From NCBI GenBank assembly GCA_011503125.2, contig WWBZ02000022.1:1736001-1800000 (forward strand): DNA of 64,000 nt, read 5' to 3'. This document shows, piece by piece, positions 1 through 18,590 of the stretch (position 1 is its first letter; each line of letters opens with the position of its first letter). The notes below the pieces were generated by a model. The model did not search any database. It worked only from the letters and a program-made list of their open reading frames with translations, and had not been told where the DNA came from. Both the position numbers and the translations under genes were made by a program. Origin of the DNA: Botryosphaeria dothidea (lineage: Eukaryota; Ascomycota; Dothideomycetes; Botryosphaeriales; Botryosphaeriaceae).

Positions 1-1830
1 CCCTCAAAATGCCGTAGTTCCTTCTCCAGCGGCGCCACCACCCCATCGTACACAGCCTGCCGGAACAGTGCGTCTCTCGGGTCAACGCGCAATGTGTCGA
101 AGGTGCAGCGCACGCAGCGCCTCACAGCATCCGAATATCCTGGGCCGGACTCGTCGCGCACTTCGTCCAGCAGCTGCCCCGCAATCGTGAAGTCAGAGGG
201 CTCGGTAGGGTCGCTGCTATCGTTCGGTGCATCACTGCTGCTGGCAGATTGTGTAGCAAGACGCTTGCGCAGCTCGGCAAAAGGCTTTCCCAGAGACAGT
301 TCAAGAAGAAGAATTCCAAGCGCGAAGACGGAGCGGTTAAGGATGCCTTGCCATTGGGACGCATTGCCATTTGAGCCAGCAGCGGCCGTAGTAGCCTCAC
401 GGATGGACTGTCTTGTGACAAATGGCTCTTTGAGCACTTCGTGATCTGCGCTCTCAACTTTGAGAAAAGAGATATCTTCGTTGTTCCATGCCTCTTCGAG
501 CCAGGGTGTATGGTGCAGTTGCAATATGCCCGACGATAGGAGTACTGCGAGGCGCAACCGGTGCAGCCGGGAGAAGCGGCGGTTTCCGATGGTTCCAGAA
601 ATTAGAATGCTACGGAGTGATAGCAACGTAGGCTTCTTGGCTTCCGACAGGAAGGCCAGGCTCTCTGGTCGATAGAGCCCAAGTTTCCGCTGGTTGCAAT
701 TGTCCTCGAAGAAACCCATGCAGCGGTCGATCCGGACTGGATTGTTCTGGCAGGTGTTCTCGCAGATGTTCTCGCAGAGATCCGTGATATGAGCAGGCCC
801 CGCAGTGATCGACATGCTTGCCGTTGCCGGGTCACTGTTTGGTGGCTGAGTTTGAATTGATGTCTGGAAGCGAACACTCTTTCTTTTCACCGCGTTCTTA
901 TCTTCAGATTGGGCCATATGCTGGTCTGCGATTGGCACGTGCTCTAGCGGACGTATGTCGATTACCTCCACCGACCATGGCGCGTCTTCAATTAGGGGAA
1001 ATTCCGAACTGTAAGACAATAAGACTCGGAGTGATGGACCAACGGGCGATGAGTTCCCGGTTCCAGAGTCTCTCCTCAAACACTTTGATATGTGCTCCAG
1101 ACGCAGATTGACTCTGTGAGCTGCCTGACACTTACAACCGAATCCCAAGCACAGGAGATCATAGACTGAAGCAGCATATTTCTGGATTATGACCAAATCC
1201 GGCAGCTGGCTTGCCGCGTGGATTCTGTGGGGCTCGAGCGCCAGGGCCTGTTTGGTCATGGTCTGGAGCGTCCTGTTATGTTGCCGAATTTGACCCACGA
1301 GACCATCGTAGTCCTGCTTCTTGAGGCTGAACTTTAGCCGGTAGTACTCTTTCCTGAACTTCGTTGTAGCATTGAATTGAACCTAGTGTCAGGCATTAGC
1401 TTGCCATCCGTATAGCTGAGCATGAACCGGGGAGAGGAACCTTCCCATCGGGATCCAGTTTCACAGGCTCTTTGATATTCTCAATTGTCTTCTGCATGTC
1501 ACCCATTGTATCGAGGTAGCAGCCATACCCTCCGGATAAGCGTCGCTTCAGTCTCGTCTCGAGCTCTGAATTCTTCCAGGCTGGACCGCCAGGATCCTTT
1601 AGCAGCGCTTCCCTTTCCTCATTGCTGTCGACAAGGCCGTTGAGCAATATCTCGCAGGTATTCAAGTATATCACTTTTTTGTTTTCGAGAGCTCGGAGTA
1701 CACTCTGCAATGGAACTCTGTACTTGAGGTATCGCTCAACTGTAGAGACTCCCTCGGCGTAGAACTTTATCGCTTCCACGAGAACTGCTAAGACAGCAAG
1801 GACCAGCCCTGCCACTTCTACGCCAGACAT
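1..1830 (-). CDS. DUF7580 family protein, 3' end beyond the left edge
   Basis: The family is fungal, of unknown biochemical function, and often found with incompatibility-type genes. Exon 1 is 1441-1830 (130 codons, from the start ATG), a 58-nt intron spans 1383-1440 (donor GTTCCT, acceptor CACTAG), and exon 2 is open from 1382 to the window edge. The N-terminus MSGVEVAGLVLAVLAVLVEA is the hydrophobic opening typical of the family. The spliced junction reads DPDGK/VQFNATTKF. Near the end the frame reads SVFALGILLLELSLGKPF (about 332-280), the late kinase-like helix typical of DUF7580. I checked that this motif and a downstream FDTLRV motif are in phase with exon 2, so the visible part is intact. 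The true stop lies left of position 1. The family call is from memory of its motifs. An allorecognition role is inferred only from the neighbours. Confidence 0.82.
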
Positions 1831-12326: not shown

Positions 12327-12715
12327 TTACACCCGGGGCGGGTTCTGGCAAGGCGTAGGGTCGTCGGGAACACAAGGCAGCGGCTCCGGCTCCGGCTCCG
12401 GCTCACGCTTCACGCCGCCTCCGCAGCTGGTCGGGTCGTCCGGGATGCACGGCTGGGGCTCCGGCTCCGGTGCTGCCTCGCGCTTGCCGATGCCGACGCA
12501 GCTCGTGGGGTCATCAGGAACACACGGCTTCGGCTCCGGCTCGCGCTTCATCGCTGCGCCGACGCCGCAGCCGCTAGTTGGGTCGTCCGGGACGCACGGC
12601 ATGGGTGCCGCCATGGCGACAGTGGCTTGGGGATGGGTCAGCTCCTCTCTGGCCGCTTCTCAAGAATGGGAGATAACATACCGAAAAGAATGGCGGCGGC
12701 AGTAGCGAACTTCAT
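12327..12715 (-). CDS. Small secreted Kex2-type repeat peptide precursor
   Basis: Exon 1 (12682-12715) and exon 2 (12327-12625) flank a 56-nt intron (GTATGT..CCAAG), giving 110 residues. Splicing creates a textbook signal peptide, MKFATAAAILFATVAMA. The rest holds four cores: CVPDDPTSGCGVGAAM, CVPDDPTSCVGIG, CIPDDPTSCGGGV and CVPDDPTPCQNPPRV. The first three are each followed by Lys-Arg. The spacers after each KR are EPEPKP, EAAPEPEPQP and EPEPEPEPLP, and APMP follows the signal peptide. All are even-length runs of X-Pro or X-Ala dipeptides ending exactly before Cys. Known biology: Kex2 cuts after KR, Kex1 trims KR, and Ste13-type dipeptidyl aminopeptidases remove X-Ala/X-Pro, as in yeast alpha-factor. 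I infer release of disulfide-looped 13-16-mers. The usual Pezizomycotina alpha-pheromone signature (WC..PGQ.C) is absent, so a divergent pheromone or another Kex2-processed peptide is possible. No UstY-type (DUF3328) gene is in the window. Confidence 0.85.
12339..12613 (-). repeat. Four imperfect tandem repeats within the secreted precursor
   Basis: The repeat unit (about 23-25 codons) is PC(V/I)PDDPT.C plus a short variable tail, KR and an acidic Glu-Pro run. The conserved part is limited to the nine or ten residues of the Cys loop. The tails differ (GVGAAM, VGIG, GGGV, QNPPRV), unlike the near-identical repeats of most mating-pheromone precursors. The GAGCCG-type codons of the Glu-Pro runs form a simple-sequence tract on the plus strand at about 12380-12405. 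Confidence 0.9.
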
Positions 12716-17026: not shown

Positions 17027-18590
17027 CTACGCAGCCACAATCGTCTCAACGTCCGCCGTCTCCTTCGGCGTCTCAGTCAAGTTCTCATATCCGTCCTTTG
17101 TAATCAGCAGGTTGTCCTCGATTCTCACGCCACCAACCTCCCAGTACTTCTCCAGCACCTTCTCGTCAATAAAGCCCTTGTGCTTCTCATCCTTGAGGTA
17201 GGGCTCGATGATGAACCTGCAGAAGTAGATACCGGGCTCAACGGTAATCACCGCGCCAGCCGGTAGCGTGCCACGCTTACGCAAGTAACGAAACATGGGG
17301 TCCTTGTCAGCGTAGTTGGGGTGACCACCGCAGTCATGCGTGTCCTAGAGACCACATCAGCACAACAGGACCAGAACTTTAAGAAATGAGGAAGACATAC
17401 CATGCCAAGATAATGGCCCAGACCGTGAGGGAAGAAGGCTACAGAAGTGCGAGAGTCAAAGATGGCCTTTGCGTCACCCTTCAGGATGCCCAATTCCAAC
17501 AGGCCCGCGATAGCGGTGCGGTGCGCTTGTGCGTGTACCTCATCCCAGTCGACACCCTCCTTCAAGCTCTCGATTGCTTCCTTCTGCATGCGCAAGACAA
17601 TCTCGTAAATGGCGCGGCTCTCGGGGGAGAACTTGCCGCTGATGGGGAAGGTGCGGGTAATGTCGGAAGCGTAGCAATCCTTCTCCGCGCCAGCATCGAC
17701 CAGAAGGTTCAACTTGCCAGCGAGCGGTTGGTCATTACGCACGTAGTGCAGCGTTGCTGCGGCCGTGCCGCTAGCCATGATAGATCCATACGCTTGGTTG
17801 CGACAGCCGCGCTCAATGCAGCTCTTCAAGAAGATGGCCTCCAGTTCCCGCTCGTTCGTAGCGGACTTCGCTGCAGCCATGACAGCGGTGTGGGCGGCAG
17901 TCGAGACGTTGTTGGCGTGGGTGATAAGCGCAACCTCGTAAGGGGTCTTGATGGCACGGCATTCTTCTATGGCCGTCTTAAGGGTGTCGAAGTTTTTGTT
18001 ATTGAAGGCAAGGAAAGTCGTCTCATCCGAGACCTGGTTGCTGATGGCATACACCGTCGACTTCGCAGTAGTGGAGCCGGAGAGGTAGGAGTTCACCTCG
18101 TCCGAAGTCTTGCAGTCGTCAATTTCAAACTTCTGAAGCGCTTCTTCCGGGCTCAACGGCAGGCCGGACCAAATGACCTCGTCCGGGTCGACGGGCGGAA
18201 TGAACAGAGTGCTCTTCTCGGTCTTCATGTCGAACGCGAGATAGCAGTCCGGCAGGTTGCATCCGGTCAGGTAGAAGAAGTACCTACGTTGACGGAAAGG
18301 CACCTCTTGATCGTTATCCTGCGCATAGAATTAGTCGCCGTATCGAAGTTCCATTCAGCAACCCTAGATCAAGGCCTTCTCCTTTCAATCGATCGATTGA
18401 CGATGGATGCGAAATGAAAGCAGAGCCAGGAACTCACCTCGTTCATCTTCGTTTTCTGTCCCTCCAGATAAACAACGCCGTCCGCATCCCCGCCATTCGC
18501 CACAATCCATTCCTTCACCTTCTTCGCATGTAACTTGGCGGGGTACTTCCCCTTCAGCACCTCCCGGACGTTGGGCTTGTTGATAGACAT
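17027..18590 (-). CDS. pepP: Xaa-Pro aminopeptidase (aminopeptidase P, M24B)
   Basis: Exons 18438-18590, 17401-18318 and 17027-17344, with introns of 119 and 56 nt, give 462 residues, the normal size for fungal PEPP. It removes the N-terminal residue before proline using two metal ions. Recognisable segments are [11 protein letters not shown] (N-terminal domain), [29 protein letters not shown], and the pita-bread metal ligands: Asp259 in LLVDAG, Asp270 in ASDITRTF, His353 in GLGHYLG, Glu in VEPGIYF and Glu in VGGVRIEDN. The frame stays open upstream to an ATG at 18866, adding 92 residues that include RYFSSTTPSLKQQ, which resembles a mitochondrial presequence. The conserved part fits a start at 18590. 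Confidence 0.96.

Follow-up and report, generated by a model that had tools for sequence, protein, structure and literature searches.

The minus-strand gene at positions 12327–12715 encodes a putative secreted precursor that is best explained, with about an even chance of being right, as a non-mating Kex2-processed repeat protein (KEP) of alpha-factor-like design, trimmed by Kex2, Ste13 and Kex1 and releasing disulfide-ring peptides, perhaps as an extracellular fungal signal. The window, that is, the whole stretch of DNA that was analysed, comprises 64 kb of contig C18 in a genome of 51.7 Mb. KEPs are a described class of approximately 7,900 members in 1,345 strains (PMC7329392), and KEPs with Ste13 signatures have also been described (PMC6339444, PMC7329392 and PMC9769878). 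The novel system proposed in the first-pass annotation therefore stands for the family, which is undescribed as far as searched, but not for the class. What appears to be new is an apparently non-mating ascomycete family with an alpha-factor-style precursor, a predicted N-terminal-Cys ring common to two classes and two processing designs. A wider reading is put forward tentatively, as possible rather than probable: Pezizomycotina would have a second family of peptide signals, outside mating, that reuses the alpha-factor processing line. Its PDDPT ring with N-terminal Cys would be conserved in both Dothideomycetes and Eurotiomycetes, being laid bare by Ste13 ladders in one lineage and by cleavage directly at Arg in the other, and its receptor would not be Ste2.

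After removal of the 56-nt intron, the gene reads as 110 residues with a signal peptide-like N-terminus, four C[VI]PDDPT[SP](G)C cores and three Lys-Arg (KR) sites (Table 1), in the order MKFATAAAILFATVAMA-APMP-CVPDDPTSGCGVGAAM-KR-EPEPKP-CVPDDPTSCVGIG-KR-EAAPEPEPQP-CIPDDPTSCGGGV-KR-EPEPEPEPLP-CVPDDPTPCQNPPRV. Coordinates, intron, frame, cores and KR sites were all as the first-pass annotation had described them, and the cores are indeed unlike the WC..PGQ.C alpha-pheromone. Core 1 carries one additional residue (PTSGC) and is C-x8-C, cores 2–4 are C-x7-C, and KR directly follows three of the four. A KEP has at least three near-identical repeats parted by Kex2 sites, three being the pipeline minimum in PMC6339444; here four cores are parted by three KR. 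The putative signal peptide, read by eye (K, hydrophobic stretch, A-x-A site), is retained in homologs. Across the splice junction, the Lasiodiplodia protein P0001 begins with MKFSTAAALLFATLAVASPMPC and the window protein with MKFATAAAILFATVAMAAPMPC, of the same length by eye, and this homology supports the predicted splice. An AAG acceptor is an uncommon 3′ splice site in fungi and counts against the predicted intron. The start codon context CACAATGA and the upstream TATAAA would fit a real promoter. The Pfam and NCBIfam scan of the precursor assigned no family (the sole match, TonB at E 5, was noise), and the search of solved structures gave no match at E up to 10.

Table 1 Features of the precursor gene in the window
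Feature	Position	Strand	Basis or remark
TATAAA	12819..12824	-	109 nt upstream of start codon; consensus match only
Exon 1, holding the start codon and the beginning of the putative signal peptide	12682..12715	-	Sequence; homology to P0001
Intron, 56 nt, GTATGT...GCTGAC...AAG, branch-like GCTGAC	12626..12681	-	Predicted from sequence
Exon 2, signal peptide end, four cores, stop codon	12327..12625	-	Sequence
Putative signal peptide MKFATAAAILFATVAMA, intron inside	12609..12715	-	Read from sequence
AP-MP dipeptides, signal peptide to core 1	12597..12608	-	Sequence
Predicted peptide 1 CVPDDPTSGCGVGAAM, C-x8-C	12549..12596	-	Processing inferred
Lys-Arg (Kex2 site) 1	12543..12548	-	Sequence
X-Pro ladder EP-EP-KP	12525..12542	-	Sequence
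Predicted peptide 2 CVPDDPTSCVGIG	12486..12524	-	Processing inferred
Lys-Arg (Kex2 site) 2	12480..12485	-	Sequence
X-Ala/X-Pro ladder EA-AP-EP-EP-QP	12450..12479	-	Sequence
Predicted peptide 3 CIPDDPTSCGGGV	12411..12449	-	Processing inferred
Lys-Arg (Kex2 site) 3	12405..12410	-	Sequence
X-Pro ladder EP-EP-EP-EP-LP	12375..12404	-	Sequence
Predicted peptide 4 CVPDDPTPCQNPPRV, last core, of TPC type and not followed by KR	12330..12374	-	Processing inferred

The search of the spliced protein against other proteins, which the first-pass annotation had suggested, yielded 18 relatives from Botryosphaeriaceae, Aspergillus and metagenomes by single-sequence and profile searches. The precursor matched P0001 at E 4.3e-24 in phmmer and is therefore not a chance reading. 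Six proteins were found at E at most 1 in the single-sequence search, and a profile built from seven sequences gave 19 proteins at E at most 10; one of these, P0019 (E 4.1), was rejected as an unrelated chance match. A second profile, built from 13 sequences, returned the same 18 relatives and none new, which is no proof of completeness because both profile searches scored only about 8,000 candidates sharing most words. The named Botryosphaeriaceae sources are Lasiodiplodia theobromae (three proteins) and Diplodia corticola (one), and the Aspergillus sources are A. avenaceus, A. melleus (two), A. minisclerotigenes, A. pseudotamarii, A. hancockii, A. affinis and A. wentii (two); the records of five further relatives (P0006, P0011, P0012, P0014 and P0016) give no organism. 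As the best annotated relatives are Botryosphaeriaceae, this fungus probably belongs to that family as well. By eye, P0002 appears to be P0001 under another gene model, and P0018 stands in the same relation to P0017. The gene is single-copy in this genome as far as an exon-by-exon search, which may miss some candidates, reaches. Two weak paralog matches (E 0.098 and E 2.6) were rejected as they are without the repeat architecture, and two further DNA-pattern matches elsewhere in the genome were due to chance. Lasiodiplodia also has a paralog, P0013 (LTHEOB_5978), in which the spacers are EA-AP and the rings C-x8-C (PTSNC), as large as the ring in core 1 of the window gene.

The cores are under strong purifying constraint. 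Among the four cores of the window gene, synonymous differences amount to 0.87 per site and nonsynonymous differences to 0.071 (six non-independent pairs pooled, nine codons each); the core DNA has thus drifted while the peptide was kept. Family-wide, C-x-x-D-D-P-T is kept with few exceptions and the tails and spacers vary, and the ring is common to two fungal classes, Dothideomycetes and Eurotiomycetes. The TPC-type core stands last in eight of the nine proteins that have one, in both lineages, a pattern suggesting that the precursor as a whole descends from a common ancestor and that its peptides are of two types. In the metagenome proteins P0006, P0011, P0012 and P0014, Cys-ring cores alternate with a second repeat of the type EAGI.SDIK.G.EDAG.KIK..FTKR, amphipathic-looking by eye, and one precursor may hold two different peptides.

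The spacers point to two processing designs. In the Botryosphaeriaceae proteins, all 10 spacers from cleavage site to core Cys are of even length. Read in phase, 35 of the 36 dipeptides in these 10 spacers are X-Pro or X-Ala, as against 5 of 26 out of phase; the count covered four proteins (the window protein, P0001, P0005 and P0013), P0002 being left out as a near-copy of P0001. None of 100,000 shuffles reached 35 such dipeptides, although the simplicity of the EP repeats contributes to this result. The window protein alone shows the alpha-pheromone-type X-A/X-P ladder in 13 of 13 spacer dipeptides. Two exceptions occur in P0013, in which one ladder ends in AS and the first spacer follows QR, not KR. 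The final dipeptides before the core Cys are KP, QP, LP, EP, VP, VP, KA, AP, AP and AS. Given how simple the EP repeats are, the most telling observation is that this final dipeptide varies while its second residue hardly does. With P0002 and the cores behind the signal peptide added, the residue before the core is Pro or Ala in 13 of 14 cases. Ste13 prefers X-P and X-A (PMC6339444). In the other 14 proteins, from Aspergillus and metagenomes, Arg stands directly before the core Cys in 33 of 35 cores, 24 of them after KR or RR and 9 after ER or GR, the latter being single-Arg and hence weaker Kex2 sites; the remaining two cores have CC (P0010) or a lost Cys (P0014). Both routes, Ste13-type trimming in the Botryosphaeriaceae proteins and cleavage directly after Arg in the other proteins, would thus lead to the same N-terminal Cys, and both designs predict mature peptides that begin with Cys and usually hold a C-x7-C ring.

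The genome contains one kexin P-domain locus and two DPPIV-N genes, so that Kex2 and a Ste13-type enzyme are available. Under the preferred explanation, the precursor would be secreted into the Golgi and cut by Kex2 after KR, a Ste13-type dipeptidyl aminopeptidase would strip X-Pro/X-Ala dipeptides until Cys is N-terminal, Kex1 would take off the C-terminal KR, and the two Cys would close a disulfide ring. The expected product is four peptides of 13–16 residues whose ring hardly changes while their tails vary. Less confidently, they may serve as an extracellular signal, either between fungi or autocrine; their target would be conserved in both Dothideomycetes and Eurotiomycetes and is probably not Ste2. 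The proposal that the gene encodes a secreted repeat precursor of Kex2 type, built like that of alpha-factor, is thus borne out at the level of predicted features, and the likeness to alpha-factor is strengthened by the X-Pro/X-Ala ladders, which the first-pass annotation had not mentioned. Ste13-type non-mating KEP peptides detected in mushrooms provide a precedent, but kep knockouts in C. cinerea had no detectable phenotype, which we count against the preferred explanation (both PMC9769878).

The Pfam neighbourhood scan covered 30 of the 181 window ORFs of at least 110 residues and identified DUF7580, TPR, choline transporter, HET, Tle1-like/DUF2235, aminopeptidase P, cyclin, F-box, Mob1, Arv1 and nucleoporin proteins; the rest of these 30 gave no family or a sub-threshold match. 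The precursor gene is flanked, as noted earlier, by a HET gene (PF06985) and, in two pieces, a gene of DUF2235 type (PF09994, a family since renamed Tle1-like); a recognition context would follow from this adjacency only. The aminopeptidase P (AMP_N and Peptidase_M24; window 17251–18330, minus strand), an Xaa-Pro enzyme, lies about 4.5 kb from the X-Pro-rich precursor, probably by coincidence. The DUF7580 protein is at window 3–1382 on the minus strand (E 3.5e-23).

A further mating pheromone of alpha type, with Ste2 as its receptor, would explain the putative signal peptide, Ste13-type ladders, Kex2 sites and two-Cys core, which together form the Ascomycota alpha-pheromone architecture (PMC6339444, PMC10569646), and two-Cys alpha-pheromones are known from 13 Dothideomycetes (PMC6339444). 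We nevertheless regard this role as quite improbable. A separate two-Cys precursor, which fits better, is present at C3:1620908 (L034) and C12:3320394 (L045), with identical 3-kb stretches; it has 323 residues from Met, a signal-like start, five YC[HR]FRGS[AV]C cores followed by PKKR, AP-EP-EP spacers and the flanking motifs CDEPGQPC and CHDEGQPC. Judged by architecture rather than by homology search (it has no significant Pfam family), it is likely the alpha-pheromone of this genome, and given this precursor the window gene is not the best pheromone candidate. The window cores lack a pheromone-type core (WC..PGQ.C or a GQ/PG turn), the turn of most Leotiomycete alpha-factors (PMC10569646); the main L034/L045 cores likewise lack it, but the flanking motifs of that precursor have PGQ and GQ. 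In addition, the window family's ring is nearly identical across two classes. The C..PGQ.C pattern gave 32 matches in the whole genome, of which 30 with loci were read and two on C78 without loci were left out, and it was the identical pair L034/L045 among these matches that led to the separate precursor. The WC..xGQ.C pattern matched just two short ORFs, both due to chance, and the control gave five matches. Since the separate precursor exists beside one Ste2 locus (C47:1866202-1867091), the window gene is probably not a mating pheromone, and the mating or Ste2-linked role raised in the first-pass annotation is weakened by these two findings together with the ring shared between two classes. 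If L034/L045 is the alpha-pheromone, one processing line would serve two genes, the window gene being the second. A separate pheromone, PpgA, is present in Aspergillus too, that of A. fumigatus being cited in PMC7329392. Pheromone, Ste2 and Kex2 are not mentioned in the main text of PMC8905617, and the pheromone core strings returned nothing relevant by title in the literature searched.

Antagonistic or defensive peptides against microbes, nematodes or rival fungi are an unlikely reading that nonetheless deserves weight, since this is a patchy accessory family of saprotrophic Aspergillus and plant-associated fungi, several variant peptides occur per precursor and P0006, P0011, P0012 and P0014 carry, by eye, the amphipathic-looking repeat between rings. 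Typical antimicrobial peptides are cationic and diversifying, whereas these rings are acidic and very conserved. A fungal signal is preferred because the ring is more constrained than expected of antagonistic peptides or species-specific pheromones; the patchiness of the family is as compatible with antagonism or effectors as with signalling. That the precursor yields a plant-directed apoplastic effector is improbable: the Lasiodiplodia and Diplodia members belong to a plant-pathogen family, but relatives occur in Aspergillus, in species that are mainly saprotrophs. We give very little credence to a whole, uncut Cys-rich secreted protein, for which the several Cys of each protein and the UniRef name of P0009 ('Chitin-binding type-2') might speak, as Pfam chitin-binding matches were absent at E up to 10 in the window protein and in P0008, which has the layout of P0009, and KR or Arg sites and ladders are kept around each core. 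A modified RiPP precursor of the ustiloxin/dikaritin type is just as hard to credit. It shares the KEP architecture, and a DUF3328 (UstYa) gene neighbours 22% of KEP genes, at a mean distance of 3.09 genes (PMC7329392), but of the 18 exons that matched UstYa (DUF3328, PF11807) in this genome those closest on C18 are 565 kb and 1.66 Mb away, and none lies within the 64-kb window, in agreement with the earlier statement that no UstY-type gene lies there. The nearest match at 565 kb disfavours an ustiloxin-type product, a nearby UstYa gene being a mark of ustiloxin/dikaritin-type RiPPs, and no typical tailoring enzyme was among the 30 scanned of the 181 ORFs.

Compared with known systems, the window precursor shares a putative signal peptide, repeated cores, Kex2 sites and X-A/X-P ladders with Ascomycota alpha-pheromone precursors (S. 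cerevisiae MFalpha1, PpgA, Ppg1/CCG-4 and the two-Cys Dothideomycete type), and two Cys in the core with many Pezizomycotina pheromones. Its core differs in having Cys first and C-x7-C with PDDPT and no GQ/PG turn, whereas the usual alpha-pheromone core WC..PGQ.C and the YC[HR]FRGS[AV]C core of this genome are C-x6-C. Like ustiloxin/phomopsin-type RiPPs (dikaritins), it is a Kex2-processed repeat precursor, but without a nearby UstYa/DUF3328 gene or a Tyr core. To our knowledge, non-mating peptide signals are scarcely known in filamentous ascomycetes. Basidiomycete Ste13-signature KEPs resemble it in architecture and non-mating character (PMC6339444, PMC9769878), although the peptides named in the available parts are linear and without Cys, in contrast to this Ascomycota family with a Cys ring. 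Ste13 signatures in Ascomycota are generally reserved for alpha-pheromones according to PMC6339444, and a Ste13-laddered precursor that is not a pheromone would, if true, break that annotation rule. Because the mature peptides are predicted exactly, the question is open to mass spectrometry and to work with synthetic peptides. In the literature searched, the core string had no fungal-peptide match by title, and the family may carry a number in KEP-survey supplements; the gene tags of six relatives had no match, and the only match for Kex2 with Botryosphaeriaceae concerned Huntiella. Identical pattern matches were also observed on the contig pairs C3/C12 (with equal spacing), C47/C76 and C36/C78, which suggest redundant contigs or duplicated assembly segments.
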